From positions 1 to 33,828 of IMG/VR virus record IMGVR_UViG_3300025674_000183: DNA of 33,828 nt; one strand, 5' to 3'. Below, piece by piece: positions 12,857 through 33,508 of the stretch. Under the pieces are notes generated by a model, which saw nothing but the letters and a program-made list of their open reading frames with translations, did not search any database and was not told the origin of the DNA. Position numbers and translations under genes: made by a program. The number at the start of each line of letters is the position of its first letter. The first letter of the stretch is position 1. Origin of the DNA: a virus.

Positions 12857-12881
12857 TTCGGCTCCTCTCAACAGGACTAAT

Positions 12882-12918
12882 GTATTTAATCCCCTTACCT
12901 TAGTAAGGGGTTAAATAC
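12882..12918 (-). repeat. Intergenic bulged hairpin, copy G
   Basis: The arms GTATTTAATCCCCTTAC and GTAAGGGGTTAAATAC enclose the loop CTTA, with the common unpaired T. It precedes the first leftward gene by about 25 bases and borders the control region. It would lie in the leader of the whole leftward transcript. Confidence 0.85.
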
Positions 12919-13452: not shown

Positions 13453-13481
13453 TTGTAATTAATGGTATGTTACCATATAAT
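13453..13481 (+). promoter_or_regulatory. Rightward late promoter, sigma70 type
   Basis: TTGTAA (13453-13458), a 17-base spacer and a perfect TATAAT (13476-13481) precede the terminase ATG by 38 bases, giving a short leader that ends in AGGA before the start. A near copy of the -35 region (TTGTAATTAATTAATGG) lies about 28 bases upstream, a direct repeat that could bind a regulator. This is the best promoter for the whole rightward block. Confidence 0.7.
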
Positions 13482-13519
13482 TATCATTACACAAACATTT
13501 ACAAAAAGCTTAGGAAACT

Positions 13520-17190: not shown

Positions 17191-17348
17191 TGAATGAAGA
17201 ATTTGTAGAAGCAGAGTTTTGGAGTATTGTAAATAATGAATATGGAGATACACAAGTAGTATCTTTTGAACAAGCATACGAAATAATAAACCCTTATCCG
17301 GGAATTTATGTTGTAATAATGGAGGAATATGGCGAAGAAAAGAGCTAG
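17190..17348 (+). CDS. 52-residue acidic protein
   Basis: The frame starts at the TAATG junction after the portal gene: MNEEFVEAEFWSIVNNEYGD, then TQVVSFEQAYEIINPYPGIY and a Glu-rich end. It overlaps the next gene by 20 bases, and the next gene's GGAGG lies inside its codons. Coupling and codon quality suggest that it is real although it is short. It may be a small virion or assembly protein; not recognised. Confidence 0.6.
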   Translation: MNEEFVEAEFWSIVNNEYGDTQVVSFEQAYEIINPYPGIYVVIMEEYGEEKS

Positions 17349-17748
17349 AGGTGGATATAGACAACCTAAAAACCCTGCTGCAGTAAGTGGTCCGGGTTCA
17401 TTATCACAGAGAACAGATGGTGGTGCAGGTAGTAGTAGTCAACCTATAAGAAGAATACCGGGCGTTGCATATGGAGAACAAAAAGCTTTATCAGCACAAC
17501 AATCTGCTGCACCTTTACCAGTAGCTAATCAAGGTCAAACTCCTGTAAGAAGTACACAAGGTGCAACACCAAATGTATTTGCTGCAACTGAGTTTCCTAA
17601 TCAACCAATAACTGAAGGTGCTATGTTAGGTGCGGGTTCACCTCCTATGCAAGCTATAGACGAAGATGCAAATATGTTACTTGCTGCAATGTATCAAGTA
17701 ATGCCAAATTCAATTATATCGGAGTTAATAAACCAAGGTAGCGAATAG
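17329..17748 (+). CDS. Low-complexity structural-region protein
   Basis: This 139-residue protein has a basic Gly-rich start (MAKKRARGGYRQPKNPAAVS), a long Ser/Gln/Pro/Ala-rich disordered middle and an ordered acidic helical end (DEDANMLLAAMYQVMPNSII then SELINQGSE). GGAGG lies close upstream of the ATG. Its place between portal and the giant protein suggests a minor virion component or an assembly adaptor, with the C-terminal helix as the docking part. Its stop overlaps the next start as TAGTG. Confidence 0.7.
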   Translation: MAKKRARGGYRQPKNPAAVSGPGSLSQRTDGGAGSSSQPIRRIPGVAYGEQKALSAQQSAAPLPVANQGQTPVRSTQGATPNVFAATEFPNQPITEGAMLGAGSPPMQAIDEDANMLLAAMYQVMPNSIISELINQGSE

Positions 17749-20700
17749 TGTTCTTTCCCGACCCAATATTTGAACAATCACAAGTAGCTAATAACGTAGC
17801 TAGAAATAATAAGTTTAAAAACTTAAAACAAAATCTTAGTGATGTTGACCCACAAAATCTTATTGCATTTACTAAGAAGTTTCCTAATGCACCACAAAGT
17901 TTGCTTATTGGTTTTACACAAGTAGGTGCAGACCCTAATTCAACTGCAGTAGAAGAAATAGTAGATAGATATTCTATATCACAATCTGAACAAGCAGCAA
18001 AACAATGGGAGTTAGCTTCTACAGATGGACAAGGCAATTCTTTAATGCCTGAACATCAAGATATGACATTAAACCTTGCAAAGGTATTTAAAGGAGATGC
18101 ACAGTTAGGTGTCTGGGCTTTACTTGGATTTGAAAGCATGGGTGAAAAAGTTATTAAAATAAATCGTCAACTTAAATATGTTGCTGATTTGCATGCCTAC
18201 GACAGTATGTTAGAAAGCGGTATGTTACCTACTGAAGCTCAAGAAAGTTTAGCTATGTATGTAAGTAATACACAGGTACCTGATATTGGTAAAGATAAAG
18301 GTACATGGGGTGAACTTAAAGAGTATGTTGAAATGTGGAGTGAAAGTAACAAACTTGCAGGAGAAACTGCATTTAGTGCTGCATTTAGAGAAGCATGGAA
18401 TGGTAACCCAGTTAACTTTGATAGAAACAGAAAATTTATATTTGAAAGTTTAATAGCAGAAGATGATATACGTTATCAAAGATTACTTGATATGGGTATA
18501 TCAGAAAATGAAGCTAGAAAAATATATTATGATAATGTAGGTACACCTATTAAGGCAAATGAAGCATTAGGTATGCAAGAGTATACAAGTTTATCTAGCC
18601 CTAATAGAATACAATTTTTTGAAGGTAGGAAATCTAATTATGCTCCCGGAAATAATATTAACGATATGTTTAGTATTTCTAATTGGTGGAGACAAAAACA
18701 AGGATTAGATACTGGTGTATTACAACCTTATTCACCGGGTAGACAAATTGCTTATAATGTAACTCCTAGTGGTACAACTGCAGCAAATACATTATCAGGT
18801 TTAATTGATGGTGGTATAAGATTAATTGCAGATGTACCTTTAGCTAAAGGAATATCAGGCATAAATAAATTAAAGAATGCTTCTATTTCTGTAGACAAAT
18901 TACTAGATGCAGGTAAAGCTGCAAAAGTAGATAATTATTTAAACGCTTTCAACAAAACTGTTAATGATTTAGAAGATTATGTAGACCCGTTTTCTGATAA
19001 AAAACCATTAATAAGTGGAAAAAACGGACAACTTATTAGAAAGTTTAAAGGTCCTGAAGGTAGAGAATATGCTGCAGGTAGAAAACTTTATAAACAAGCA
19101 GGTGTAATTAGTGGTACTAGAAAATCTTTGTTTAGAAATACATCACAAGATTTAATGAACTCACCATTTGGTAGAAAAATAACTAGAGCATTAACCGAAG
19201 AAAATAATGTTGCTAAGTTAATGACTACACCGGGACTTGACAATTTAGATTACACAGTAGCTAAACAAATAGCAGACAGTAGAGACTACTTAACAACTAG
19301 ACAAATACTAGATAATTTATTTGATACAGGAATAATTAATCAATTACCCGGTAAACAATCTGGACTAACTAATGCTGTACTTAAAACTTCTGCTCTTAAA
19401 GGTAAAGAATTACTTGATAGTCAAAATGTTCTTAAACAAACAGTAGGCAAAGGTTTATCTGCTATAGGTAGAGAAGATGCTGCATTTAGAAGTGTTGGGT
19501 CTTATCTTGGTGGCGGTGTTAAACAAGGTATAAACGTACTAAAAGGAAAACCTGTAGAAGGAGATGCTTTTGCACAATTAATGGGCTTTAGTGCAAATAT
19601 GCGTTCAGGTTATAAACCATATATGAACAAAATACTTAGTGTAACTCCTGAAGAAGGATTGTCATTTACAAATAGAAATAGCGCTGTAAGAAACCTTGTA
19701 TCACACTTGCAAGTTACTGGATACAGTTATGATGCTATGAAACCTATAGTTGATGAGTTAATAGATATAGCTGATGGAGATTTTGAAGCTATACAAAACT
19801 TTGCATATCAACAAATACTTAGAGATGAATTTATTATGCAACAAACTGGTAAAAATATTGCTACACAAAGAATTGCCAAAAAAATATTTGAAAGTAATGC
19901 AGACATTAGGAAATATTTTATTGACAGTTTAACTGGTGAAAATATGCCATTTGTTGGTGATGTAATGGAAACTATTGTACAACGTGGTCCAGACGGTGAG
20001 GAAATAAATATGGTTGTACCTTCATTACATTTATTAGCTGAATCATCAGAATTAATGGCACCATTAGTAGATTACAGATTAATAAATAGAGCATTAGGTA
20101 AAGTATTTACAACATACGGTGACGAGTTTGAAGGTGGATTAAGAGCTAATTTAAAACATACCGGTAAAAATATGGTTAAAGCATTTAAAGGTGGAGAAGA
20201 TTTTACAGGCATTATTCCAAGTAAAAATTTAACAGATGATGCTTACACTTTGACATTAGATTACATGACACGAAATGTATTTAAACCGTTAGTGCTACTT
20301 AGAGGTGCTTGGTTTATTCGTGTTTTCTTAGAAGAAAGTATGAGAATGGCTGCAGCAGGTCTTGACAATATGTTTATAAATCCTGCTAGTCATTTAGTTT
20401 GGGCTAGGTCACATGGTCAAGCAGGCAAATTATCTAAGAAGTTTTTAGGTGAAAGTGCCGGTGGTGTTGATAGTGCAAAAATTAGAGAAAGCTTAGAGTA
20501 TAAAGACGTTACTAATAGTGTTTGGTCAGCAGGTGCATTAAAAGGTAGACCTACTAGAGGTTCTAGTATGGGTAGAGATTTTATTGAAATTAGACGTGGA
20601 GAAGATGGATACGTTAATGGTATTGCTACAGAATTAATACAATTACGTAATGACCCTATAGCTAGATACTTAGCTGCTAATGGATTTAATGACGCATCTA

Positions 20701-23051
20701 AAGCTTGGTTTAGAAGCGCAGAAGCGTTACCACTTAGAAAAGAATTAGCAAGATTAGGCGGTAAGAAAATGGAAGGTATTGTTTCTAACGCTCGTGATGC
20801 TGATGCTTATTTAGCTTCTGTAGAAGCACGTATAAGAATAAAAACTGGTGAACAATTAATTGAAGGTAAAAACTATATAGCAGGAGATAAATACAGTTAT
20901 AAATTTGGTACATTTGGTGGAGAACAAAGATTAAGAGATGCTATTGCTACTGGTAAATTAGAGTTACCTAGAGGTAAAAAATTAGATAAAGCAAACGTTA
21001 TAAACTTTATTCCTGATGTCACAAAAGAATATAATAAAAAACATTTAGAAACAATTTACAAAGGGTTGTCATATTATGTTGATGAAGGTTTAGATTTTGG
21101 TTTAGTAAAAGGTTCAAGACCACAACAAGATGTAAGTGGCTTTTTAGGTAAACTAGAAAACAAATTAGATACTATGACTGATATAGCTTTTAAACATCTT
21201 ATGACTAAACCTAATGCTTATTTATCTAGGTCTGTTACTTGGAAACAATATAGATGGCAATGGATTAATGATAATTTTATGGACATGTCACCTGAACTAC
21301 AAAAGAAATTTGTTAAAGAAGCTCAAGAAGCTAAAATACCTAAAAAAGTTATTGATGAAATGCGTGGTCAAAAAGGTGTAGCTACAAGTAAAATAGACGA
21401 CTATGACTTAGCTAATACACAAAGCAGGGCTTATGGATTAGCTGCTACCAAACAATTATTATATGACGCATCTAAAAAACATTTAATATCTGATATTACA
21501 AGAAACATATTTCCCTTCCCTGAAGTATGGTTTGAGTTAGCACAGACTTGGAGCAAAATATTAATAGCTAACCCTTATAGAGCTAGACAAGCACAACTAT
21601 TTACTACTGGTGCTAAAGGTTCTAATGTCAATGAATACACAGGAGAAGGTTTCTTTGCACCAGACCCTAATGGTTCAGGTTCAGAAATGTTTGTTTATCC
21701 GGGTATGGACTTTATGAGTAATGCTATATTTGGTAAAGATAGTGGTGTGAAAGTAGCTCCACAAGGTTTTGTTCAGGGTATAAACTTATTGGGTCAGGGA
21801 TTTGTTCCGGGTCCATTACCTTATGTAGGTGTTCTTGCAGATAAAGTATTACCAAGACATGGACTAGGTAAAGATATTAGAGGTTTATTATATGGTGAGT
21901 TTGGACCACCAAAATTAGGAGATGTTGTACCAACACCTGCATGGTTAGATAAAATACTATCTGCAGTAGGTGTAGGAGAAGATAGACAACAATTAAGAGC
22001 ATCTACAACTATAGACGTATATAGATATGGTAAAGCTGTTGGTAGAGATAAATCTTTAGCAGAACAAGGAAAACTAGATAAGTACTTAAATAAAGGTATG
22101 AGTTTAGACGATGCTTACATGGCATATTCAAAACGTCAAGCATCACAACTTTATTTGTTTAGAGGATTATCACAGTTTTTTCTACCTACTGGTTGGACAC
22201 CAAGATACTACATTGAAGATAAAAATGGTAAGTATTGGGGTGCGCAGATACTAGCTAATGAATATAGAGAGTTAGTTGACAAAAACGATGATGACCAAAT
22301 TGCTGCTGCTAATGAGTTTTTAAGAACATATGGCATGGAACATGGTTGGTTAACTGCACCTAAAACACAATCTAAAGTAGGAAAACAATCCTTTACAGAC
22401 AGAGTATTAGAATTTCAATCTAAAAATAAAAAATTACTTGAAACATTAGAATTGTCTAAATGGTATGCCTTACCTGATAGTCCCTATGATGAACGTAATT
22501 ATGCAAACATGTATGATGCTTTTAACAAAGGAGATAGAGTAACACTATCGCCTGAAGAATATCAAAGACAAGTAAATGATACACGTGGTTATTTTCAATA
22601 CTCAGCGTTTAAAGAACAAGTAGAAGCTATGGGATTATCTTCTGCAGATGAAGTACAAGTATTAAGAGTGTATAGAAATTATTTAATTGAACAACTACCG
22701 GGCTTTCAGAGAGATTATGGAACAATTAATCCGGTTAAAGCAAGAGATGTTTTAGAAGAAATGCAAGCAGAATGGACTACAAATGAGCTAGTATTAAAAC
22801 TAGAATCTGGAAAAGCATTTGCTGAGTTTAACCCTATATGGGAAGAAGCAGGTAAAATTTCAGAAAGTTATGGTTTTAGTGATAGTTGGTGGCTAACGAG
22901 TTCTGCACCAGAAGCAAAAGCATTGAGATTAGGAGTAGCCCAAATCGCTAGAAATATAACAAAAGAATATCCGGATTTTAAATATATATGGATAGGAGTT
23001 TACAGTAGACTGTTCAGAGACGATACTGAACTTATAGGAATATTTAACTAA
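17748..23051 (+). CDS. Giant 1767-residue virion protein, candidate internal/ejection protein
   Basis: This is the largest gene, starting with GTG at a TAGTG overlap. The protein is polar and mostly helical by composition, with a few less polar stretches: near residues 345-370 (GLIDGGIRLIADVPLAKGIS), near 845-875 (LVLLRGAWFIRVFLEESM) and near 1254-1280 (FPFPEVWFELAQTWSKILIA). No protease, lysozyme or polymerase motif is evident. Phage proteins of this size with membrane-like patches are usually internal virion proteins ejected with DNA, or tape measures. Lying between portal and capsid genes and apart from the tail genes favours an internal protein. The family is not recognised. Confidence 0.75.
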   Translation: MFFPDPIFEQSQVANNVARNNKFKNLKQNLSDVDPQNLIAFTKKFPNAPQSLLIGFTQVGADPNSTAVEEIVDRYSISQSEQAAKQWELASTDGQGNSLMPEHQDMTLNLAKVFKGDAQLGVWALLGFESMGEKVIKINRQLKYVADLHAYDSMLESGMLPTEAQESLAMYVSNTQVPDIGKDKGTWGELKEYVEMWSESNKLAGETAFSAAFREAWNGNPVNFDRNRKFIFESLIAEDDIRYQRLLDMGISENEARKIYYDNVGTPIKANEALGMQEYTSLSSPNRIQFFEGRKSNYAPGNNINDMFSISNWWRQKQGLDTGVLQPYSPGRQIAYNVTPSGTTAANTLSGLIDGGIRLIADVPLAKGISGINKLKNASISVDKLLDAGKAAKVDNYLNAFNKTVNDLEDYVDPFSDKKPLISGKNGQLIRKFKGPEGREYAAGRKLYKQAGVISGTRKSLFRNTSQDLMNSPFGRKITRALTEENNVAKLMTTPGLDNLDYTVAKQIADSRDYLTTRQILDNLFDTGIINQLPGKQSGLTNAVLKTSALKGKELLDSQNVLKQTVGKGLSAIGREDAAFRSVGSYLGGGVKQGINVLKGKPVEGDAFAQLMGFSANMRSGYKPYMNKILSVTPEEGLSFTNRNSAVRNLVSHLQVTGYSYDAMKPIVDELIDIADGDFEAIQNFAYQQILRDEFIMQQTGKNIATQRIAKKIFESNADIRKYFIDSLTGENMPFVGDVMETIVQRGPDGEEINMVVPSLHLLAESSELMAPLVDYRLINRALGKVFTTYGDEFEGGLRANLKHTGKNMVKAFKGGEDFTGIIPSKNLTDDAYTLTLDYMTRNVFKPLVLLRGAWFIRVFLEESMRMAAAGLDNMFINPASHLVWARSHGQAGKLSKKFLGESAGGVDSAKIRESLEYKDVTNSVWSAGALKGRPTRGSSMGRDFIEIRRGEDGYVNGIATELIQLRNDPIARYLAANGFNDASKAWFRSAEALPLRKELARLGGKKMEGIVSNARDADAYLASVEARIRIKTGEQLIEGKNYIAGDKYSYKFGTFGGEQRLRDAIATGKLELPRGKKLDKANVINFIPDVTKEYNKKHLETIYKGLSYYVDEGLDFGLVKGSRPQQDVSGFLGKLENKLDTMTDIAFKHLMTKPNAYLSRSVTWKQYRWQWINDNFMDMSPELQKKFVKEAQEAKIPKKVIDEMRGQKGVATSKIDDYDLANTQSRAYGLAATKQLLYDASKKHLISDITRNIFPFPEVWFELAQTWSKILIANPYRARQAQLFTTGAKGSNVNEYTGEGFFAPDPNGSGSEMFVYPGMDFMSNAIFGKDSGVKVAPQGFVQGINLLGQGFVPGPLPYVGVLADKVLPRHGLGKDIRGLLYGEFGPPKLGDVVPTPAWLDKILSAVGVGEDRQQLRASTTIDVYRYGKAVGRDKSLAEQGKLDKYLNKGMSLDDAYMAYSKRQASQLYLFRGLSQFFLPTGWTPRYYIEDKNGKYWGAQILANEYRELVDKNDDDQIAAANEFLRTYGMEHGWLTAPKTQSKVGKQSFTDRVLEFQSKNKKLLETLELSKWYALPDSPYDERNYANMYDAFNKGDRVTLSPEEYQRQVNDTRGYFQYSAFKEQVEAMGLSSADEVQVLRVYRNYLIEQLPGFQRDYGTINPVKARDVLEEMQAEWTTNELVLKLESGKAFAEFNPIWEEAGKISESYGFSDSWWLTSSAPEAKALRLGVAQIARNITKEYPDFKYIWIGVYSRLFRDDTELIGIFN

Positions 23052-24184
23052 TGGAAGAATTAATACAAAAACAATTTGGAGTTTCTGTACAAGAATTTAG
23101 GGACACATACATGACAGTAGTTCCTGCATATTATTCTCGTATAATAAATGCTATTGATGCAAATGATGTTGATGTGTTGCAACCTATATTAGATGAAATA
23201 AATATGGTACAAGATACATCAGGTGTACCAGAAGTAGAACAATTTGAAAATGCTAATACCGTGGAAGAAACAATTCAAAGCGGTATATCCGAAGCATTAA
23301 AAAATACACCTTATAGTACAGGTCCATCAAGACAAATTTATGTAAAAAATCCTGAAACAGGAAAGTTAGAATTGCAAATGTTACCTAGCAATTTTGCTAA
23401 TGGTTTTACTGCTTTATTTAATATAAGTCAACAACCAGAATTGTTAGCAGAATTACAAGATAGTTTTGTAAAAAATGGTTTAGTAGATGCAGAATATTTT
23501 GATGATGAAGAAGTATTTGGAGAAAAAACACAAGCTGTTTTATCTGCTGTTATGGAGTATGCAGACAATACAATTTTCATTGAACAAGATAGTGAAGAAG
23601 GTCAAGCACTTATTGAACAACATGGTTCTACATATGGTTTCTTAGAGGGAGACCCTGAAAATGTAGCATTTAGTATGGCTGTATTAGACCTAGCAGTAGA
23701 AGGTATGTCTCAAAGTGTTAAAGTACAAAAAGATTTACAAGAAAAATTAGAAGATGAACAAGCTAGACAAGTACTTGCATCACAATATGATGTACCTACT
23801 GATTTAGAAATGGAAGAAACTATTGATGAAGTTTTTCAAAGTATTGTACCTAGAGAAGCTACAGAAGCAGAAAAAGCTAGATACAGTACAAGACTTGCAC
23901 AATTATATTCACCTAGATTTAAACAATTAGAAGCTTTAGAAAAAGCAATTAGAACTAATAATATATTTCAAACAGTAGATGTTACTAAAGAGTTTGAAGG
24001 TAGAATGGTAACTGGACAAGAAGAACAATTAAAAACAGATATTTTTCAAATTACAGACCCTGAAAGCGTTATACAATCAGAAATAAAAGAAGATTTAAGT
24101 GCTGAAGCTAGTGCAATAGAACAAGCTAATGCAGCTAGAAGACAACAGTCATCACTTATTGCAGCTATGTTAGGACAGATATAA
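23051..24184 (+). CDS. Putative internal virion or structural protein, 377 residues
   Basis: This acidic, Gln-rich, mainly helical protein begins MEELIQKQFGVSVQEFRDTY, and its C-terminal third is a long helical region (EKARYSTRLAQLYSPRFKQL onward). The middle contains YVKNPETGKLELQMLPSNFA and an acidic EYFDDEEVFGEK segment. It is joined to both neighbours by TAATG. It belongs to the five-gene set between portal and scaffold that probably encodes ejected or capsid-internal proteins acting with the 1767-residue protein. No known domain is visible. Confidence 0.65.
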   Translation: MEELIQKQFGVSVQEFRDTYMTVVPAYYSRIINAIDANDVDVLQPILDEINMVQDTSGVPEVEQFENANTVEETIQSGISEALKNTPYSTGPSRQIYVKNPETGKLELQMLPSNFANGFTALFNISQQPELLAELQDSFVKNGLVDAEYFDDEEVFGEKTQAVLSAVMEYADNTIFIEQDSEEGQALIEQHGSTYGFLEGDPENVAFSMAVLDLAVEGMSQSVKVQKDLQEKLEDEQARQVLASQYDVPTDLEMEETIDEVFQSIVPREATEAEKARYSTRLAQLYSPRFKQLEALEKAIRTNNIFQTVDVTKEFEGRMVTGQEEQLKTDIFQITDPESVIQSEIKEDLSAEASAIEQANAARRQQSSLIAAMLGQI

Positions 24185-25053
24185 TGGAAAATACACCATT
24201 TGATGAACACATGGCAGGTACAACTGATGCTGAAATAGCAGAATGGTATGGAGAAAAGTACGGTAAAGATTACATTACTGATACTAAAACCATGACACCT
24301 GCACAAATAGACGACATTAAAACACAGTTTAAAACAGATGTAGCACAATCTTTTTTAGATGATACAGATGAAGTTGCATTGTCTGCTAGAGAATGGCTTA
24401 ATGAAAACACATCAAGAGGTGTAGACCCTACAGCACAAACTGATGACACATTGTTATCTTTAAGTGAACAAGACGAAGTTATACAAAGAAATAAAGATTT
24501 TGATTTAGAAAACGCTTTAACTGATGATGAAATATTTATGAGAGATGTACAACCTGATATTGACGATTATTATGCAGATTTAGCAGCAAGAGAACCTACT
24601 GATGAAATGATAAATTCTTATTATGAAGCACAATCCTCAGCAGACCAAGCAATGATTGATAATTATTATGACAATTTAATTGATGATACACAAAACATTA
24701 AAATAGCAGACACTCCAGTTACAGGTAAAGTAATTAAACAAACTATAAAAAATAGATTAAAAAAAGTTTTAATAGGTGGTGTTGATGCTTTAGACATATA
24801 TGAATTAGGTTTAATTGGTATGGCATTAGTAGAACCTGCTGTACAAAAAGCATTAAATCCTATAATGCCAATGATAATTCCCGGCTTCAAAGGTAAATTA
24901 GATAGTAAAACATACGGTCAACAAGTAATAGAAAACTTACAAACAACTGCAAAGATTTCACCTACTGCAAAAGTTGCAGAAAAATTTAGTGAAATGCCAA
25001 AACAAGGAGAATACAGCTCCTATAGTTGGGTAGGAAAGATGTTAGATAGATGA
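24184..25053 (+). CDS. Putative internal virion protein with hydrophobic segment, 289 residues
   Basis: This very acidic protein (many Asp-Asp pairs across residues 1-170) carries a hydrophobic stretch near residues 198-235 (DALDIYELGLIGMALVEPAV and NPIMPMIIPGF) that could insert in a membrane. The C-terminus is basic. The acidic body with a membrane-like patch would suit a protein ejected into the host envelope. It is coupled by TAATG upstream and ATGA downstream. No known family recognised. Confidence 0.65.
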   Translation: MENTPFDEHMAGTTDAEIAEWYGEKYGKDYITDTKTMTPAQIDDIKTQFKTDVAQSFLDDTDEVALSAREWLNENTSRGVDPTAQTDDTLLSLSEQDEVIQRNKDFDLENALTDDEIFMRDVQPDIDDYYADLAAREPTDEMINSYYEAQSSADQAMIDNYYDNLIDDTQNIKIADTPVTGKVIKQTIKNRLKKVLIGGVDALDIYELGLIGMALVEPAVQKALNPIMPMIIPGFKGKLDSKTYGQQVIENLQTTAKISPTAKVAEKFSEMPKQGEYSSYSWVGKMLDR

Positions 25054-26267
25054 GTGAAATAACTTGGGGTCCTAAAGGTACACAAATAATTGTTATTGAA
25101 GGTGCTAAATCAGATGAAGAAGGTAACTTAGTAGAGGGTAGCCGTATGGATACTGCATACTTTTTAGGGTATGAGGATACTAATGGGACATTCTTTTTGT
25201 GGTCAGTACCAGAACAAGAGCTATCTGTAGTTACAGACTTAGATGATACACTACAAAGAGGAGCATTAAAACAAGAAGTACTTAATACATTACCTAGTAG
25301 AAAAGTACCATTGACTACATTTAATAGTTTAAGTATTAACAATCAAATAGTTTCTGCAGGTAATTATGCAGAGCTTAAATCTGATTTAACTAATCTTAAT
25401 CCAATACAAGGGTTTTTAAAAGATATGCAAACTATTGCAGATGAATTGTACTGGTGGAAAGATAGTAACTATATAAATATGGTACAAGAAAACTATGCTG
25501 AAACAGGTAGCTATGAACTTAATGCTGCACAAATGGCAGAGTTTTTACAAAAGTATGACATGTCAGAAGCAGAATACAATTCTGCTATTACTAGAGCTAC
25601 AGATAAAAAAGGTTATGAATCTACTAAACAAACATACTACAACTCTATCGTTGACCAAGTAACAAAACTTGGTGGTGAAATATCTGAACAAGGTATGATG
25701 TATCTAGCTACACAATGGGCTAATGGTTTATATAACACAACTAGAGTTACCCAAGAAATTATTGGTTTACTAGACCCATTTTCTAACTTACCTGTATCAG
25801 AGGGATTTAAAACTGCTGCAGGAGATACTACACCTATACAAACTGGTGAAACTAAAGTACAAGAATTATTAAACAAATGGCTACCTAAACACATGCACAA
25901 TGAATTTAACATTGAACAAATAGCAGGTGATATAAGAAATAAAGGTGGATATGAAGCACAATTTATTGAAGACCTTAAAGATAAAAGATTTGCTCAATAT
26001 GGTATGTATGATAGAGATATTGCTTGGAATAACATTGTGAGTACATATGTGTCACAAGCTAGTGACATATGGGGTGTACAAGCTATGGAAGATGACCCAG
26101 TAATACTTGATGCAGTACAAAGAAATAATCAAACAGTATCAAGAGAAGAACTTAAGAAAATTGGTTTAGAACGAGGATATCAGAAGACTGTGACAGATTT
26201 TGCAAGTAGTATGGCTGATGCTTTTGGTACAGGCGTAGTTAAATCTGCAGGATACTTGGAGGGGTAA
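25050..26267 (+). CDS. Putative structural protein, 405 residues
   Basis: It starts MSEITWGPKGTQIIVIEGAK at an ATGA overlap. The first 110 residues look beta-rich (TAYFLGYEDTNGTFFLWSVP), the rest helical with AQMAEFLQKYDMSEAEYNSA and a Trp-containing YDRDIAWNNIVSTYVSQASD. The end (FASSMADAFGTGVVKSAGYL) is Ala/Gly-rich. It belongs to the portal-to-scaffold set. The layout of a beta head and helical body could suit an internal core or connector protein. Function is inferred from position only. Confidence 0.65.
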   Translation: MSEITWGPKGTQIIVIEGAKSDEEGNLVEGSRMDTAYFLGYEDTNGTFFLWSVPEQELSVVTDLDDTLQRGALKQEVLNTLPSRKVPLTTFNSLSINNQIVSAGNYAELKSDLTNLNPIQGFLKDMQTIADELYWWKDSNYINMVQENYAETGSYELNAAQMAEFLQKYDMSEAEYNSAITRATDKKGYESTKQTYYNSIVDQVTKLGGEISEQGMMYLATQWANGLYNTTRVTQEIIGLLDPFSNLPVSEGFKTAAGDTTPIQTGETKVQELLNKWLPKHMHNEFNIEQIAGDIRNKGGYEAQFIEDLKDKRFAQYGMYDRDIAWNNIVSTYVSQASDIWGVQAMEDDPVILDAVQRNNQTVSREELKKIGLERGYQKTVTDFASSMADAFGTGVVKSAGYLEG

Positions 26268-27256
26268 TGGCAACATATGTAGTAGTAGGAAGTCCCGGAA
26301 AATATGTAGTTAAAGAAGCTACAACAGAAGAAGAAAAACGTAGCGGTATGTCTGAAATTGCTGCTAAACAAACAGCAGAAAACTTAAATGCAGCAACTCC
26401 ACAAAGTTCTAGTAATGGCGGACAAACAACACCTCCACCTACTCAATTACCATCAGTAAACACAGACGCAGCTATGGCAGTTGCAAGAAGTTTATTTAGT
26501 TTTTTTCCTGAAGCTGTATTAAAAGATTATGCTAATGCTTGGATTAAATTTGATGACAAACAATTAGCACTTGCTGAAACAAGAACAAAACCTGCATGGC
26601 AAAAAGAATTTGGATTTTTACAAAGAGATGATGGTAGTTTAATTATGTCTGAAGCTGAAATGTTATCTACTAAAGCTAGTTATGCAGAAACCTTAAGAGA
26701 AGTAGATATAACAGATATTAGTCAATTTGAAAATAAATTTAATGATTTAATTACTGGTGAAGTTTCTGCGGCAGAGTTTCAACAAAGAGTAGACCTTGTA
26801 TACAATCAAGTAGTAGACCAAATACCAGAGGTAGAACGTTTATATAGAGAACGATATGGTATTGAATTAGACCAACCTACTATATTTGGTGCATTACTTG
26901 ACCCTGATATATCAGATAAAGTACTTAAAGGTGATATACAAACTTTACAACTACAAGCACAAGCAAGTATTAGAGGGTTTACACAATCTTTTGCTAGGGC
27001 AGAAGAACTAAGAAAACAAGGATTTACTGCACAACAAGCAGCACAAGTATATGAACAAGCAACTGGATTTATGGAAGCTGCTCAAACTGTTGGTAGAGAA
27101 TTAGAATTAGAAACACTAGAAGAAGCAGCACTCGGTGACATAAGTTCACAACAAAGATTGCAAAGAATATCAGCAGAAATACAATCTGCAGGTGGTGTAC
27201 AACTAGGAGCAGCACAAACACAAACTGGTGAAATAGTTGGACTTATAGAAGATTAG
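26267..27256 (+). CDS. Putative structural protein with helical C-terminus, 329 residues
   Basis: This protein has a short beta-like start (MATYVVVGSPGKYVVKEATT), a Ser/Thr/Pro/Gln-rich linker (residues 40-65), then a mainly helical body. The last 100 residues (ARAEELRKQGFTAQQAAQVY and ETLEEAALGDISSQQRLQRI) are Ala/Gln/Glu-rich coiled-coil-like. GGAGG precedes the ATG, which overlaps the previous stop. It is the last gene before the structured leader at 27259, so it probably ends one translational unit. No family recognised. Confidence 0.65.
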   Translation: MATYVVVGSPGKYVVKEATTEEEKRSGMSEIAAKQTAENLNAATPQSSSNGGQTTPPPTQLPSVNTDAAMAVARSLFSFFPEAVLKDYANAWIKFDDKQLALAETRTKPAWQKEFGFLQRDDGSLIMSEAEMLSTKASYAETLREVDITDISQFENKFNDLITGEVSAAEFQQRVDLVYNQVVDQIPEVERLYRERYGIELDQPTIFGALLDPDISDKVLKGDIQTLQLQAQASIRGFTQSFARAEELRKQGFTAQQAAQVYEQATGFMEAAQTVGRELELETLEEAALGDISSQQRLQRISAEIQSAGGVQLGAAQTQTGEIVGLIED

Positions 27257-27258
27257 TG

Positions 27259-27429
27259 TATACTAATGTGTATAGCGTTGCGTGGTCCGCTTAAAGACCT
27301 GCAATCAGATTTTGGTCCTACGTCAAAATCTTGTACTTAAATTCGTAGAGTAAGGACTTTAGCTAGAGCTACAGTAACTAAAGTCAAGTGTGGTCTGTAG
27401 TCCCACGTTAGACATCCACAGGGTCTAAC
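27259..27429 (+). ncRNA. Structured leader upstream of scaffold and capsid genes
   Basis: The gap 27257-27459 holds no gene but a chain of hairpins. TTGC..GGTC/GACC..GCAA spans 27278-27304. The perfect 8-bp AGATTTTG/CAAAATCT is at 27307-27331 and the perfect 8-bp GACTTTAG/CTAAAGTC at 27355-27385. GTGG/CCAC is at 27390-27406 and the perfect 7-bp GTTAGAC/GTCTAAC at 27407-27429. CTTA/TAAG and TATAC/GTATA are smaller. It looks richer in G+C than its surroundings and ends 17 bases before the AGGAGG site of the scaffold gene. Candidate roles are an mRNA-processing or stability leader for the most highly expressed proteins, or an independent RNA. No known class recognised. Confidence 0.5.
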
Positions 27430-27459
27430 TGCAAGGGTAATGCTGTGAGGAGGTACGAA

Positions 27460-27948
27460 ATGACAGAAAACTATACAGATGCAGGCGAAGAAACTATTAA
27501 TGAATCTTCCGGAGCTAAACAAATGCGTCAGAAAATTAAATCGCAAGAAGAAGAAAATGCAGATTTAAAAGCTAAGTTAGCAATGTATGAGCAGGAGAAA
27601 TTAGAAACTGCTGTAACAGGAATTGGCTTAGACCCTAACGCAGGGTTTGGTAAAGCATTAAAGCAAGTGTATAAAGGAGATGTCACACAAGACGCTCTTT
27701 TGGATTTTGCAAAGCAAGAGTATGGCTATGAACCAACAGGTGTTTCAGAACAGGATGCACCACAACCAGTTCAGGAAGCTGTAATTCAAAGTGATGCACG
27801 AGCTAGAGTAGAAGCACTTGAAAATAGTTCACAATCAGTTGTACCCAAAGATGCTTCAGAAGTTTTACAAAAAGTTGCAGAAAGCGGTAATACTAAAGAC
27901 AGTATTAGAGCGAAACTCAACATAATGGAAGCTCAGAAGAATCTATAA
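27460..27948 (+). CDS. Capsid scaffold protein
   Basis: I choose ATG 27460 (MTENYTDAGEETINESSGAK), preceded by GAGGAGG at six bases; the in-frame GTG at 27445 overlaps that site. The 162-residue product is charged, Gln/Glu/Lys-rich and helical, with a coiled coil at about 18-50 (MRQKIKSQEEENADLKAKLA) and a helical, partly basic C-terminus (KDSIRAKLNIMEAQKNL). Composition, length and place directly before the capsid gene fit a scaffold that guides prohead assembly and then leaves. The C-terminal helix would be the usual capsid-binding part. Confidence 0.78.
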   Translation: MTENYTDAGEETINESSGAKQMRQKIKSQEEENADLKAKLAMYEQEKLETAVTGIGLDPNAGFGKALKQVYKGDVTQDALLDFAKQEYGYEPTGVSEQDAPQPVQEAVIQSDARARVEALENSSQSVVPKDASEVLQKVAESGNTKDSIRAKLNIMEAQKNL

Positions 27949-27987
27949 AATTTAGTATAAGTACGAGTAATTATGTAGGAGGTAATT

Positions 27988-29019
27988 ATGGCAGCTATAG
28001 GCAGCCCTAATCCAATCTCAGCAAGTGAGATAAATAACTTTACAGGCGAGTTGTTTAAAGTCACACCACATAGAACTCCATTATTATCAGCATCCGGAGG
28101 ACTTACCGGAGGAAAAGCTATTAATAGCACATTCTTCCAGTTCCAAACGATTGATAATGCTACAGTATCTTCAGTTACACCGGGAACAGAAGGTGGCGCA
28201 CCTAACTATAATGGTCGTTCACGTTCTGCTATCCAAGGTGTACTTGAGATATTTCATGAAGCAGTTCAGTTAACCTTTACTGCTCAAGCAGCTTATGGAG
28301 AGATTGTGCCGTTTGACTTGGCAGCTAACTATAAGAACAGTATTGACAAGTTAGCATTAGAGGGTACTAACCCTGTTAATGATGAAATGGCTGAACAACT
28401 TCAGCTAGTTCTTGAACTTGTTGCAAAAAAAGCAGAGTTCCAAGCTTTTAATGGTACTTTTGCAGACGGAACCGCAGCTAGTAGGCAAATGAGGGGCTTA
28501 GATGCTCATTGTAACCTTACTGGTGGCAACGTTTATTTTAACGATGCTAATGGTGATGGTACCGGTGCAGACCAAAAAATACATTGGGACACAGTAGCAG
28601 GTGCTATGAAGAAACTATATGATGCAGGCGCTCCAATGAGAGAACCAGTATTATTTGTTTCTCCTGCAATGTTGTTGGACCTTAACAAAGAACTTGTTAA
28701 CCCAACAGTATCAGGTGCTTTAACAGGCGGTATTCTACCTAGAGACAGAAATGTCGGAGGTGTTGACATTGACACTATCGTAACTCCATTTGGAGCTATG
28801 GGATTGGCTTTGTCTGACTACTTACCTGCTAACAAAGCATTTATTGTAGACATGGCATATGTTGCACCTATCTTCTTGAACATTCCGGGCAAGGGAACAG
28901 TCTTCATAAGAGACTTAGACCAAGCCGACAATGCAAGAATGGGTAAAGCAGTTTACATGGAAATGGGATTTGACTTCGGTCCTCCACAATACCATTGTGA
29001 AATTGCCGACATTGCTTAA
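27988..29019 (+). CDS. Major capsid protein, HK97 fold probable
   Basis: This 343-residue protein with a strong AGGAGG site reads MAAIGSPNPISASEINNFTG, has TPHRTPLLSASGG near the N-terminus, a helical spine region (AEQLQLVLELVAKKAEFQAF) and a C-terminal part with FIVDMAYVAPIFLNIPGKGT. The pattern resembles HK97-fold capsid proteins of the SU10/DUF5309-like group. It follows a scaffold gene, and codon choice looks less A+T-biased than in its neighbours, as expected for the most abundant virion protein. There is no sign of a fused protease. It builds the icosahedral shell. Confidence 0.87.
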   Translation: MAAIGSPNPISASEINNFTGELFKVTPHRTPLLSASGGLTGGKAINSTFFQFQTIDNATVSSVTPGTEGGAPNYNGRSRSAIQGVLEIFHEAVQLTFTAQAAYGEIVPFDLAANYKNSIDKLALEGTNPVNDEMAEQLQLVLELVAKKAEFQAFNGTFADGTAASRQMRGLDAHCNLTGGNVYFNDANGDGTGADQKIHWDTVAGAMKKLYDAGAPMREPVLFVSPAMLLDLNKELVNPTVSGALTGGILPRDRNVGGVDIDTIVTPFGAMGLALSDYLPANKAFIVDMAYVAPIFLNIPGKGTVFIRDLDQADNARMGKAVYMEMGFDFGPPQYHCEIADIA

Positions 29020-29031
29020 TAGATAAGTATT

Positions 29032-29068
29032 GAACTTTATGGGGGAATCCACCTTCCCCCTAAAGTTC
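29032..29068 (+). terminator. Strong hairpin after the major capsid gene, possible terminator or mRNA stabiliser
   Basis: GAACTTTATGGGGGAA pairs with TTCCCCCTAAAGTTC around a six-base loop, a 15-bp stem with one unpaired T. It begins 13 bases after the capsid stop. No U-run follows, so it is not a standard intrinsic terminator; partial termination or protection of the capsid mRNA 3-prime end is more likely. The single bulged T recalls the leftward hairpin family, although the sequence differs. Confidence 0.6.
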
Positions 29069-29085
29069 TGCTAAAGTAGGAGATT

Positions 29086-29430
29086 ATGAGTTTAAGTAAA
29101 TCAATAGCTAAAAGTGTAACAATAGATGTATCTGCAGATGCTAACAATTCATCAGGTATAAGTACTGATGGAATGTTATTAGCAGGAATTATTTTTCCTG
29201 CAACAATGACAGGTTCAGCATTAACCCTTGATTTTTCTTTAGATGGAAATACATGGTACGATGTTGTAGAAACAGACGGTACTGAAGTATCTTATACAAT
29301 TACTGCAGGTGACGCAGTTAGAGTTGACCCTAGTGGTTGGGCTTTTGCATCATCAGGTTTTGTCAGAGTAACATCAGGAAGCACAGAAGCTGCAGATAGA
29401 ATAATAACATTAATATTTAGAGCTGCTTAA
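29086..29430 (+). CDS. Small beta-rich virion protein
   Basis: This 114-residue protein with AGGAG before the ATG is rich in Ser/Thr/Ala/Gly and alternating hydrophobics (ALTLDFSLDGNTWYDVVETD, DRIITLIFRAA), as in beta-sandwich capsid-decoration or fibre-tip domains. It lies directly after the capsid gene and its hairpin, a position often used by decoration proteins. The sequence is similar in style to the 108-residue protein at 33182, so the two may be related folds. Confidence 0.65.
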   Translation: MSLSKSIAKSVTIDVSADANNSSGISTDGMLLAGIIFPATMTGSALTLDFSLDGNTWYDVVETDGTEVSYTITAGDAVRVDPSGWAFASSGFVRVTSGSTEAADRIITLIFRAA

Positions 29431-29439
29431 GAGGTATAC

Positions 29440-30435
29440 ATGAGTACCACAATAGGAGACCTAGTTGATAGGGTTTATAGAGAATACCTAGAATCACCCG
29501 ATGACTTAGTAAGTTATTCATATTTAACAGGCGGTATAGATAGTACTGCTACAACACTTGCATACGATGATGGTTTGTTTTCTAGTGAAGAAGAAGACGC
29601 ATTAGGTGCAGGTACCGTTATAGAAATTGACCAAGAGTTAATGTATACAACTGCATTAAATGTAGTTAATAACGAAATAACAGTTAGAAGGGGTGCAAGA
29701 GGTACTACAGCAGCAGCACACTCAGCTAATGCAATTATTAAAGTATCACCTACATTTACAAGAAAAGCTGTGTATGACGCAGTAGTAGACCAAATTGAAA
29801 ATTTATATCCAACTTTATTTGCTGTAGAAACACAATCAATTACTGCTAAATCAGGAATAAATATTTTAAATGGAGCAACAGATAATTATTTAGTTACTCC
29901 TATAAAAGCTATATCTCAGTATACAGATTATGATGTAGGGCAAGATGAAACAGGTTCACAGTTTAGAGGTGTATCTGTAGAATTAGTACAATTACCTAAT
30001 CCATTTACCTATACAAATGATGCAGGTGCATCTGTAACAGTTACCTATACAAGTGGACCAAGTGTTGTACACGCATTACAAAACTATGGCATTACTTCAG
30101 GTAAAACTATTTATGTTACTTTTAAAAAGAAATTTGTTGAACCAACAGATGAAGATACAACATTAGTTGCTGTAGGTTTAGAAAATGAATACGAAGCTAT
30201 TATTATGGCAGGTGTTGCTGCACAAATGGTTGCAGGCAAAGACATTAGTACGTTAGATGCTAAATATCTTACAGACCAAATAGCTGTACAAAATGCTCCA
30301 ATAGGTAGTTCTAATCAAATTAGAAATAGTTTATTACAATATCAACAATTATTAATACAACAAGCAAGAAAAGATTTAAGAGCTAGATATCCAGAACCAG
30401 TATCTATGAACAATATTAACTATCCGAGTGTGTAA
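29440..30435 (+). CDS. Putative head-tail connector or tail protein, 331 residues
   Basis: It starts MSTTIGDLVDRVYREYLESP. Residues 30-105 contain DSTATTLAYDDGLFSSEEED, IEIDQELMYTTALNVVNNEI and VRRGARGTTAAAHSANAIIK, a beta-rich motif (bound value, then RGxxGTTAAAHxA) common in phage tail and baseplate proteins. The later part is mixed, with helices at the end (NSLLQYQQLLIQQARKDLRA). Its position after the decoration gene and before the propeller-like protein suits a connector or tail-tube component of a short tail. It is coupled by TAATG to the next gene. Confidence 0.68.
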   Translation: MSTTIGDLVDRVYREYLESPDDLVSYSYLTGGIDSTATTLAYDDGLFSSEEEDALGAGTVIEIDQELMYTTALNVVNNEITVRRGARGTTAAAHSANAIIKVSPTFTRKAVYDAVVDQIENLYPTLFAVETQSITAKSGINILNGATDNYLVTPIKAISQYTDYDVGQDETGSQFRGVSVELVQLPNPFTYTNDAGASVTVTYTSGPSVVHALQNYGITSGKTIYVTFKKKFVEPTDEDTTLVAVGLENEYEAIIMAGVAAQMVAGKDISTLDAKYLTDQIAVQNAPIGSSNQIRNSLLQYQQLLIQQARKDLRARYPEPVSMNNINYPSV

Positions 30436-32432
30436 TGCCTAGAGTAGCAACTACTTCTATAGTTAGTAAACCTAAACAATATGGATACGATATACAATTA
30501 GATGACGTATTATTACGCACAGCTATTGGTCCTAATGCACAAATGACTATACAATCATCTGATGTTCAAGAATCAGGTATAAATGTTAGACAAAACCCTG
30601 AAGATTTTACATCAAACTTAGGTCGTATATACTCAAGAAATAACTTTAAATCTGGACAAGGATTAGATACTGCACATAGAAGTAATGGAAATCCTGATGA
30701 TGTTAACAGATTTTGGGATAGTAAAGGTATAGATGTATTTCATGCAGAGGATGAAACTTCTTATCATATACATTTACTACATGAAACTGCTGATGTAAAT
30801 GTTAGAGGAGCAGATACTACATTTGCTGGTACTAATAACTATATGACACAAACTACAGATGGAAAGATATGGGTAACTGACAATACAAGTGTTTATTACT
30901 CTACAGATGGAACTTCATGGACTGAAGTAGATAGTGCTACAAACAATGCAACACATAACTTTACTGGTATAGCTGCATTCGGTAACAAGTTATTTCTTAC
31001 AACAGCTAATGGAACAACAGATTCACAGTTAATAGAGTTTGATGGTACAAGTACTTGGACTGTACAAACTACTGCACAATCTAGTGCAGGTGGATTAACT
31101 GGGGTATGGTTTGTAAAAAATAGATTATGGATTACAGGTAATGATGGAACTGCAGAGTACATATGGGAAGCTAGTCCATTTAATAAATCATGGTCTGGTT
31201 CTGATTTACAAGATGCAGATAGCATAGTAGAAGTAGAACCTACACATGAGTTTACAGGTATCATTGATGGTGGTGCAGCAGTATTAGCTGCTAGTACAGA
31301 CGGTACTGTTTATTCTTTTAAACTTAGTAGTGGTTCTTTTGTAAATCAAGGACAAACAAAAATACCTTTTGAACAAGTACATAGTATAGCTGCATCAGAA
31401 GGAATTATATTTCTTGGAACTAAAGAAGAAGGTGGCAACTCTACAGGTGTAGGTCGTTTATATAGAACAGAACTTGTAGCAGTAGATGATTTATATGTAT
31501 TAGCTAATAGACAATTAATAAAAGAATGGATATATACAGGTATAGATGCTACACCACATGCTATGTTTGTTAGTCGTGATAGTGTTTATATGGGTGTACA
31601 AGAAGATACTAGTGAAGTAAATTTGTGGCGATACTACCTACCAACAGGTGGTTTGGCTAGAGATTTATTAACAACAGGCAATAGTTTTGTATATGGCATA
31701 ACACAAAATGCAGGTAAATTTGTAATATCTGTGTCAGGTAGTGATGTATATAAAGAACAATCTACATATGAATCGGAAGGTTATTTATTAATGTCTGCAG
31801 CAGATTTCTTTACAGCAGAACAAAAACAATTTGTTGGTGCAGAAGTTTCAACATTTAATTTACCTAATAACACAGAAGTTGATTTACAATATTCTACTAA
31901 ATTTGAAGATTTAGATAGTCCTGAAGCAGCTACATTTACTACAGCTATTACACAAGTATCTGGTATAGGAGATGTTGAAAAACAAATAGCAGAAGTTTCA
32001 CGTTATATTATAGGTAAAGTAGTACTTAAAAGTACAGACAATATAGATACTCCTAAAGTCAAGTCTGTACAATTTCGTGCATTGGCTAGACCAGAGTTAG
32101 TAGTTGTACAAATACCTATAAACATTAGTGATAGAGTAGAAAGACCTAACAGAAAACCTATTAAAGTAAAAGGATTAGGCGAAACGTTGTATCAATCTTT
32201 AAAAGCTAAAGAAGGTACATCAGCTACATTAGAAATATTTGAACCAAGAGAAATTATAAGAGGTGTTGTTGAAAAAATAAGTTACCCAATACAAGCTGAT
32301 GAAGTATTAGGAAGCGACACACAGTATGCTATAATTACAGTCAGAGGTACTAGACAACCTACATTTGACGATGTAACATCTATTAACGTACCGGGTATTG
32401 CAGCTTATGGTATAATGAGGTTCGGAGCATAA
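30435..32432 (+). CDS. Tail protein with beta-propeller-like repeats, 665 residues
   Basis: Residues about 120-400 consist of repeated short blades with Trp and SxDGTxW turns: KIWVTDNTSVYYSTDGTSWT, NKLFLTTANGTTDSQLIEFD and NRLWITGNDGTAEYIWEASP, then ILAASTDGTVYSFKL. This is typical of a beta-propeller, as in podovirus tail-nozzle proteins and some receptor-binding tail proteins. The C-terminal quarter (KVVLKSTDNIDTPKVKSVQF onward) is beta-rich and may form the attachment domain. It is the largest tail gene and probably part of the tail tube or tip. Coupled on both sides by TAATG. Confidence 0.75.
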   Translation: MPRVATTSIVSKPKQYGYDIQLDDVLLRTAIGPNAQMTIQSSDVQESGINVRQNPEDFTSNLGRIYSRNNFKSGQGLDTAHRSNGNPDDVNRFWDSKGIDVFHAEDETSYHIHLLHETADVNVRGADTTFAGTNNYMTQTTDGKIWVTDNTSVYYSTDGTSWTEVDSATNNATHNFTGIAAFGNKLFLTTANGTTDSQLIEFDGTSTWTVQTTAQSSAGGLTGVWFVKNRLWITGNDGTAEYIWEASPFNKSWSGSDLQDADSIVEVEPTHEFTGIIDGGAAVLAASTDGTVYSFKLSSGSFVNQGQTKIPFEQVHSIAASEGIIFLGTKEEGGNSTGVGRLYRTELVAVDDLYVLANRQLIKEWIYTGIDATPHAMFVSRDSVYMGVQEDTSEVNLWRYYLPTGGLARDLLTTGNSFVYGITQNAGKFVISVSGSDVYKEQSTYESEGYLLMSAADFFTAEQKQFVGAEVSTFNLPNNTEVDLQYSTKFEDLDSPEAATFTTAITQVSGIGDVEKQIAEVSRYIIGKVVLKSTDNIDTPKVKSVQFRALARPELVVVQIPINISDRVERPNRKPIKVKGLGETLYQSLKAKEGTSATLEIFEPREIIRGVVEKISYPIQADEVLGSDTQYAIITVRGTRQPTFDDVTSINVPGIAAYGIMRFGA

Positions 32433-32968
32433 TGGCAGATAGACAAACACAAATAGTTAACTTTTACGAATCTACAATTGCAGGTAGTATTTTAGCTAGC
32501 GCAGCAACATCGTTTACAGTATCTTCTGCTCCTACAACAAACGGTACTACAGTTATAAACGCAACAATAAGTAATGCAGATACATGGTTTTATTTAGTAA
32601 TAGACCCTGATAACTCTGGAGCTAGAGAAGTTGTTATAATTAAAGCTTCTGCATCTACGAGTTTTACAACAGTTGAAAGAGATATTGAAAACAGATATGG
32701 TGGTACACCACCTAATCATCAAGTAGGAACAACTGTACGTATGGCTGTTGTATATCAACAAATAGAAGATGTTAATGATAGAGTTGATGCAGTTAAAGTT
32801 ACTGCTGATGGTGCAATACAGACATCTTTATTACAAGATGATGATAGTTTTGCAAGTCCTGCTGCTAACAAAGTAGCTAGCTCTGAAAGTATTAAAGCTT
32901 ATACAGATGCACAGATTGCAGCGTTACCAACAGGAGTTAGTCTCGGCTTAGTATTGGCATTGTCATAA
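32432..32968 (+). CDS. Tail fibre-type protein, 178 residues
   Basis: This is a Ser/Thr/Ala-rich, beta-structured protein. The N-terminal half has AATSFTVSSAPTTNGTTVIN, FYLVIDPDNSGAREVVIIKA and a VERDIENRYGGTPPNHQVGT motif, related in style to the RGxxGTTAAAHxA motif in the 331-residue protein. The second half has LLQDDDSFASPAANKVASSE and SIKAYTDAQIA, a sequence type often seen in phage tail fibres before a trimer-forming region. It is probably a short fibre or tail appendage. TAATG couples it to both neighbours. Confidence 0.7.
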   Translation: MADRQTQIVNFYESTIAGSILASAATSFTVSSAPTTNGTTVINATISNADTWFYLVIDPDNSGAREVVIIKASASTSFTTVERDIENRYGGTPPNHQVGTTVRMAVVYQQIEDVNDRVDAVKVTADGAIQTSLLQDDDSFASPAANKVASSESIKAYTDAQIAALPTGVSLGLVLALS

Positions 32969-33165
32969 TGAGTATGTTAACGATGCTTAAAGAAGGTGGA
33001 AGTCTTCTTATAGATACAATAGGTAACTTACCTATAGTAGAAGATTTAGATTTATTACCTAATGCAGGTGGTAGTTTATCAACAACTTTTAGAATAGTAA
33101 TGGATAGTTTTTTCATAACAAGTAGCAATAGTTCGCAAGCTTATGCTATAGTTATGGGAGATTAA
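32968..33165 (+). CDS. 65-residue hypothetical protein
   Basis: It starts MSMLTMLKEGGSLLIDTIGN at a TAATG overlap and continues LPIVEDLDLLPNAGGSLSTT, then FRIVMDSFFITSSNSSQAYA. The hydrophobic and Gly-rich N-terminal part could associate with a membrane or with the fibre. It lies between two fibre-type genes with clear coupling. No family is recognised. Confidence 0.6.
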   Translation: MSMLTMLKEGGSLLIDTIGNLPIVEDLDLLPNAGGSLSTTFRIVMDSFFITSSNSSQAYAIVMGD

Positions 33166-33181
33166 CAATTTGGAGATATAA

Positions 33182-33508
33182 ATGGCAGATACACTACATT
33201 CAGTACAAGGAGTTCTAGGAACATCAGCAGCAGATATTATTGATGCTGTTCCTGCTTCAACTACTGAAACAGTTATTGGTATTTTAGTATCTAATGTTAG
33301 TGGAACAAGTTCAGATGTTACAATAGATTTAAGTGTGACTAAATCAGGTGGAAGTTTAACTCACATTCTTAATGATGTATCACTACCTTTTGGCACAACA
33401 ATAGAGATTACAACAAAGATATCATTAGAAACAGGTGATGTATTACAAGGACTATGTTCTGCAGCTTCTAGCGCAGAATACAATGTATCATTTCTTAGAC
33501 AAGCTTAG
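33182..33508 (+). CDS. Small beta-sandwich virion protein, 108 residues
   Basis: It starts MADTLHSVQGVLGTSAADII with GGAG upstream. Regular alternation of polar and hydrophobic residues (TVIGILVSNVSGTSSDVTID, GSLTHILNDVSLPFGTTIEI) indicates a beta sandwich, as in capsid-decoration or fibre-base proteins of marine phages. No catalytic motif is visible. It lies in the tail-fibre part of the late block, eight bases before the next gene. Confidence 0.65.
   Translation: MADTLHSVQGVLGTSAADIIDAVPASTTETVIGILVSNVSGTSSDVTIDLSVTKSGGSLTHILNDVSLPFGTTIEITTKISLETGDVLQGLCSAASSAEYNVSFLRQA

Follow-up and report, generated by a model that had tools for sequence, protein, structure and literature searches.

The window, i.e. 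the whole stretch of DNA analysed here, is IMG/VR record IMGVR_UViG_3300025674_000183 with a length of 33,828 nt, and all coordinates are given for its + strand. In its late block (13520-33508), a putative scaffold gene and the gene for the major capsid protein are preceded by a gap of 203 nt (27257-27459), which reaches from the stop codon of the upstream gene at 27256 to the ATG at 27460. A preliminary description of this DNA had called the late block almost gap-free; this is roughly right, as the ORF list contains one other gap of more than 100 nt (17191-17328, 138 nt). The locus has the following features:

26267-27256: upstream gene, 329 aa
27257-27264, + strand: promoter-like TG and -10 hexamer TATACT (27259-27264), by sequence match
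27274-27299, + strand: pseudoknot PK1; stem 1 27274-27277/27288-27291, stem 2 27284-27287/27296-27299; core GUUGCGUGGUCC at 27277-27288
27307-27348, + strand: pseudoknot PK2; stem 1 27307-27314/27324-27331, stem 2 27318-27322/27344-27348 (CCTACG/CGTAG); A-rich loop 3
27355-27401, + strand: pseudoknot PK3; stem 1 27355-27362/27378-27385, stem 2 27368-27374/27395-27401
27407-27447, + strand: pseudoknot PK4; stem 1 27407-27413/27423-27429, stem 2 27417-27421/27443-27447
27449-27453, + strand: Shine-Dalgarno sequence GGAGG of the scaffold gene
27460-27948, + strand: putative scaffold gene with 162 aa, which comes first after the leader (phrog_7813, function not annotated; named by position)
27988-29019, + strand: major capsid protein gene, second gene of the unit (SU10_MCP, PF17236, 3.8e-45; phrog_1328)
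29032-29068, + strand: strong, conserved hairpin (loop UCCACC) that follows the capsid stop codon and may mark the 3' end of the unit

The designation of the 162-aa gene as scaffold is putative and is based on its position, an all-helical model of low confidence and very weak matches to scaffolding proteins. A structure search with this model gave no match at E ≤ 0.001, and neither PADLOC nor Pfam returned a match for the gene at E ≤ 1. Across the Shine-Dalgarno sequence and the start codon (27448-27462), 13 of 15 alignment columns are invariant.

No phage record matched the DNA of 26200-29100. The closest capsid proteins in the phage collection belong to actinobacterial phages and two uncultured records, with an identity of 34% at best, and the only two capsid matches in GTDB contigs are both located in one Actinomycetota MAG. 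An actinobacterial host therefore appears plausible. Elsewhere in the window, a noncoding divergent region of 650 nt (12872-13519) lies before terL; within it there are short AT-rich motifs (e.g. TACCATATCTAGT) as well as a hairpin of GCGG with CCGC around 13304-13326.

Architecture of the pseudoknot chain

At least three perfect hairpins of 7-8 bp had been described within the roughly 200 bases of the gap, and all three are present, with 8 bp (27307-27331), 8 perfect pairs or 11 pairs with one mismatch (27355-27385), and 7 bp (27407-27429). The hairpins are real, but they are not the chain of simple hairpins that had been proposed. Each of them, with a loop of 9 nt or nearly so, is stem 1 of a pseudoknot, in which the loop pairs with sequence 3' of the hairpin. 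Beyond these three, a fourth pseudoknot, PK1, lies at the 5' end of the chain. The four consecutive H-type pseudoknots fill positions 27274-27447 of the gap with 5-7 nt between neighbours, and the 3' end of PK4 is located one base ahead of the Shine-Dalgarno sequence.

The pairing of CCTACG with CGTAG, which had been considered an alternative to the hairpins, is also present, but it constitutes stem 2 of PK2 and forms alongside stem 1. A switch between two folds was rejected because the two stems of PK2 persist together in the same sequences, each with both-side changes. PK2 recurs in other clades of relatives, in which stem 2 reads CTACG/CGTAG, CTGCG/CGCAG, CAACG/CGTTG, TACGG/CCGTA, CAAGG/CCTTG or CTACT/AGTAG.

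When only nested pairs are allowed, folding of the gap is ordinary (z = -0.94 for the minimum free energy, which 32 of 200 shuffles equal) and gives an alternative with part of the ribosome binding region paired. Nested minimum free energy was discarded as a test, being not significant and, as it is blind to pseudoknots, misleading here. A score for pseudoknot chains, for which both the scorer and its limits were set after the fold had been seen by eye, was reached by none of 300 dinucleotide shuffles of the gap. The scoring script returned the same four pseudoknots, with stem 1 of PK2 longer by one pair. Among 1682 tiles of 195 nt covering both strands of the window, the top tile lies in the gap, and the runner-up is the gap on the other strand. 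The comparative evidence is independent of this single-sequence test.

Conservation of the chain in relatives

A search with the capsid protein led to 62 loci, 57 of which were measurable, while three had no measurable gap and two no capsid start. In all 57 measured loci, at capsid identities from 98 down to 52%, a gap of 156-356 nt lies ahead of the scaffold gene, the low values of 156 being due to an upstream in-frame start codon. The position directly before the scaffold and capsid genes, noted earlier for the window, holds in relatives. Among 102 stretches carrying the RNA motifs, the capsid gene follows at a distance of 300-1100 nt in 87, and 13 stop too early for this to be judged. Of the other two, L141 shows no more than a partial capsid match at a greater distance, and L197, one of 53 pattern matches, was dismissed as a chance match within coding sequence. 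A second copy of the leader was not found in any of 242 sequences (241 loci and the window), and apart from 27277-27288 the PK1 motif, with up to three mismatches, occurs in the window no more often than by chance. In phage records at 23-34% capsid identity the gaps measure 39-201 nt, and none of the four tested has a chain at p ≤ 0.05; the fifth record of this set, with a gap of 39 nt, was too short for the chain test.

The preliminary description had proposed to compare the same gap in related phages for conserved helices, and the helices are conserved. For 48 distinct leaders of clade A (alignment A1), the structure with four pseudoknots comprises 48 pairs and 2298 cells, which are counts of related sequences and not of events. 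Standard pairs occupy 93.9% of these cells as opposed to 30.7-41.3% in six versions with the partners slid by 1-3 columns. Both-side changes are found in 24 of the 48 pairs, compared with 14.0 (sd 1.6) in shuffled and 1-7 in slid alignments; further pair types do not exceed the shuffles (40 vs 37.8). Stem 1 of PK4 shows both-side changes in all seven pairs, one of which occurs with five pair types. One row (L178) is misaligned in PK2 and was kept in. Clade B, treated separately with 27 distinct sequences and 45 pairs, has 96.9% of its cells paired (31.6-43.8% when slid), with both-side changes in 16 of 45 pairs vs 8.4 in shuffles. Helices 2, 4, 5, 8 and 9 of clade A are 100% paired, including 44 G-U cells. 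Over all clade A helices there are 79 G-U and 46 A-C cells, and A-C occurs exclusively in helices which are not fully paired. As a G-U pair would be a mismatch in a transcript of the other strand, its presence in 100% paired helices points to an RNA read from the + strand.

These data also bear on the very improbable reading that the stretch is a DNA element, such as a packaging, recombination or replication site, or a product of chance or coding constraint. The inverted repeats could be extruded as DNA hairpins, but the G-U pairs in fully paired helices, together with the covariation, largely refute this reading. A coding role is contradicted by stop codons in all three + frames and by lengths that differ among relatives by 1-9 nt, down to single bases; the gap is thus noncoding. 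Against chance stands the frequency of chains in a wider capsid search, in which the best 80 of 396 relatives yielded 54 distinct gaps, many on contigs from the first capsid search: 52 of these gaps have chains at p ≤ 0.05 compared with shuffles, the two below this level being L321 and L275, whereas coding controls reach it in 5 of 54 cases inside the scaffold gene and in 2 of 54 inside the upstream gene. Among representatives outside the group of the window, the chain is reached by at most 5% of 200 shuffles in 19 of 20; in the exception, L045, 66 of 200 shuffles are as good, and the layout is the same by eye. By reading, four pseudoknots are present in clades A, B and L037, and three in the clades of L035, L039/L041 and L043/L044. 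Between clades the sequence differs strongly and the layout stays.

The pseudoknots differ in the degree to which their sequence is constrained. In alignment A1, 34 of 48 rows were picked by an exact match to the PK1 motif, which accounts for the conservation of PK1 in these rows; the other 14 came from the capsid protein search alone. None of these 14 loci varies in the PK1 core GUUGCGUGGUCC (12 of 12 columns invariant), whereas 13 of 41 columns are invariant in PK4, and no invariant run in their scaffold gene is longer than 9. PK1 rows with double changes number six, all of them among these 14 (five AGTG/CACT, one GACG/CGTC). In alignment A3, part of the rows were found with a pattern fixing stem 2 of PK2. 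The contrast between the core of PK1 and PK4 indicates that PK1 is held in sequence and the other pseudoknots more in shape, and the conservation of PK1 is more easily explained by a partner that recognises it than by a passive shield. One form of such recognition would be a translational operator, comparable to the one gp32 uses on the T4 gene 32 leader: a ligand or a protein, be it scaffold, capsid or some other product of phage or host, would bind the chain specifically at PK1 and turn scaffold and capsid translation on or off. This reading is rather doubtful. The invariant core, seen in loci that were not picked by it, and the direct contact of the chain with the ribosome binding site speak in its favour, but PK1 differs in several other clades.

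Boundaries of the putative scaffold-capsid unit

The promoter-like box at the 5' end of the gap has counterparts in relatives. All 19 clade representatives have a -10-like hexamer (4-6 of 6 positions matching) whose end lies 6-9 nt ahead of PK1; in 14 of them it beats 95% of shuffles, and a complete TTGACA (6 of 6) is present in four (L037, L039, L041 and L042). The -10/-35 of the window itself is weak and not significant alone, with 37 of 300 shuffles as good. From the position of the box, the transcript would be expected to start at about 27270-27274. At the other end, relatives also have their last pseudoknot terminating near the ribosome binding site. In clade B (e.g. L011, approx. 1470-1645), a small ORF (just under 60 aa) that includes a hydrophobic stretch was noticed by eye between the upstream gene and the leader; the -10 lies in its coding part, and its end overlaps PK1.

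It had been suggested that the element sets scaffold and capsid expression apart from the upstream structural genes. Because of its own promoter-like -10, the leader may indeed do so. Taken as a whole, the earlier interpretation is partly supported: the conserved helices, the position and the promoter-like -10 speak for it, but the hairpin chain and the alternative pairing had to be corrected. Position, promoter-like box and boundaries make it very probable that the gap is the 5' leader of a separate scaffold-capsid mRNA.

A terminator-like site of the intrinsic type is absent from 27257-27459. Behind the capsid gene, the hairpin at 29032-29068 is perhaps an attenuator or a 3' stabiliser. Of 50 distinct stretches downstream of the capsid gene (window and relatives), 40 have CCACC in the loop, although the stems differ between clades. 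A comparable arrangement is known for the capsid gene 10 of phage T7, which has its own promoter and a structured leader before it and a terminator hairpin after it; the leader structure is a simple hairpin and the promoter that of the phage polymerase. The likeness lies in the promoter and leader before and the hairpin after the capsid gene, while T7 is not known to have a chain of pseudoknots there.

The strong hairpin that separates the capsid gene from the genes downstream, and the location of the chain at the expected transcript start with a sequence-conserved first element, would also suit an antiterminator of the nascent-RNA type, for which put is the example. The leader would then bind the emerging RNA polymerase and allow read-through of the post-capsid hairpin to the last late genes. 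Such a function is quite improbable, given that PK2-PK4 keep structure more than sequence, that in every clade read the chain runs up to the ribosome binding site, a placement not required for an antiterminator, and that the element does not recur elsewhere in the window.

Comparison with known systems and proposed function

The Rfam search proposed in the preliminary description gave no family match for the gap. With Rfam 15, no family reached its gathering score for the gap: no match was obtained in the window, for 27150-27550 at E ≤ 5, or in 11 relatives. In 7 relatives searched at E ≤ 5 there were two matches, neither of which lies in the gap or on its + strand. The self-cleaving ribozymes known to Rfam gave no family match in the window or in 27150-27550. 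ARAGORN detected no tmRNA in the window; tmRNA likewise has several pseudoknots in series, but the element described here has no tRNA-like domain or tag frame. What was found are covarying helices between a promoter, recognised by sequence match only, and a ribosome binding site, which is the general mark of a cis-acting structured mRNA leader. By kind, the element is a structured phage mRNA leader with an architecture new to Rfam.

Published systems were used for comparison (PMC3475682, PMC5086642, PMC2864571 and PMC3014915), and a search by title in the open-access literature gave no report of a phage leader with tandem pseudoknots; an earlier report elsewhere is possible. The marine and cyanophage motifs manA, wcaG and PhotoRC-II are structured, possibly cis-regulatory RNAs of marine phages (PMC2864571). 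They are linked to metabolic or photosynthesis genes and are in Rfam, whereas the leader described here matches no Rfam family.

According to a 2010 review (PMC3014915), the T4 gene 32 leader combines a phage leader pseudoknot with unusual mRNA stability and protein-controlled translation; the gene 32 mRNA is the most stable T4 mRNA, and its pseudoknot was regarded as perhaps the only viral one in translational autoregulation. The gene 32 mRNAs of the phages T4, T2 and RB69 likewise have an H-type pseudoknot in their 5' leader, ahead of the ribosome binding site. They have one pseudoknot followed by an unstructured A+U-rich stretch, in contrast to the four pseudoknots found here, which extend up to the Shine-Dalgarno sequence of the scaffold and capsid unit; an unstructured A+U-rich stretch leading into the ribosome binding site is absent from this leader. 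For the operator discussed above, T4/RB69 gene 32 provides a precedent, but the T4 operator, as described in that source, needs the unstructured stretch behind the pseudoknot for cooperative binding, and the present leader is almost wholly paired.

Tandem H-type pseudoknots transcribed from one promoter are the mark of the ToxI-type antitoxins, with one case in a phage, PhiTE, which escapes ToxIN through pseudo-ToxI repeats. An improbable alternative is accordingly that the chain is released as a small trans-acting RNA, which might serve as a PhiTE-like decoy of the type III (ToxN-like) toxins of the host or in some other regulatory role. ToxI and pseudo-ToxI consist of repeats of 34-36 nt, have a terminator, are associated with a toxin gene and act in trans. 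Here, each unit is an H-type pseudoknot, but the four units are not identical, with no direct repeat family in 27257-27459. The gap lacks a terminator-like site, a head gene takes the place of a ToxN, CptN or TenpN gene behind the element, and the neighbouring genes have no toxin match. The position before the scaffold gene, fixed in relatives, also argues against release of the chain.

Since its design is kept in distant relatives although the letters change, the pseudoknot chain is a real, uncatalogued RNA device, and most likely it controls the amount of capsid protein. There is about an even chance that it does so as the cis-acting leader of the separate scaffold-capsid transcript, protecting the mRNA and setting its translation. 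Transcription would begin a few bases before PK1, so that the mRNA would start with a pseudoknot. Acting in cis, the chain would leave almost no single-stranded 5' end or linker to ribonucleases that depend on the 5' end or on single strands, and it would prevent the leader from folding back onto the ribosome binding site. In addition, it would park a compact structure at the expected place of the mRNA exit side of the 30S subunit. As an outcome, the two proteins required in the greatest amount would be made from a long-lived mRNA that is translated efficiently and whose 3' end is perhaps closed by the conserved hairpin after the capsid gene.

As one stable 5' structure would be enough for protection, the presence of four pseudoknots suggests more. 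Beside protection of the 5' end and an initiation site ready for ribosomes, PK1 may be read by a partner. Tandem-pseudoknot domains are known from the UTRs of plant RNA viruses. Tentatively, a chain of three to four pseudoknots spanning the mRNA from its 5' end to the ribosome binding site could be a bacterial counterpart of these domains, making the capsid mRNA nuclease-proof and preferentially loaded with ribosomes. If this is true, such a chain would be common to a large group of uncultured phages.

The chain represents a new RNA family, strongly supported by comparison within a sizeable group of uncultured phages; it is located where capsid production is decided and marks these phage genomes for annotation. 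It also offers a compact part for testing mRNA protection by pseudoknots and ribosome loading in bacteria. A chain of four pseudoknots before the capsid genes would extend the phage leader pseudoknots well beyond the gene 32 case.
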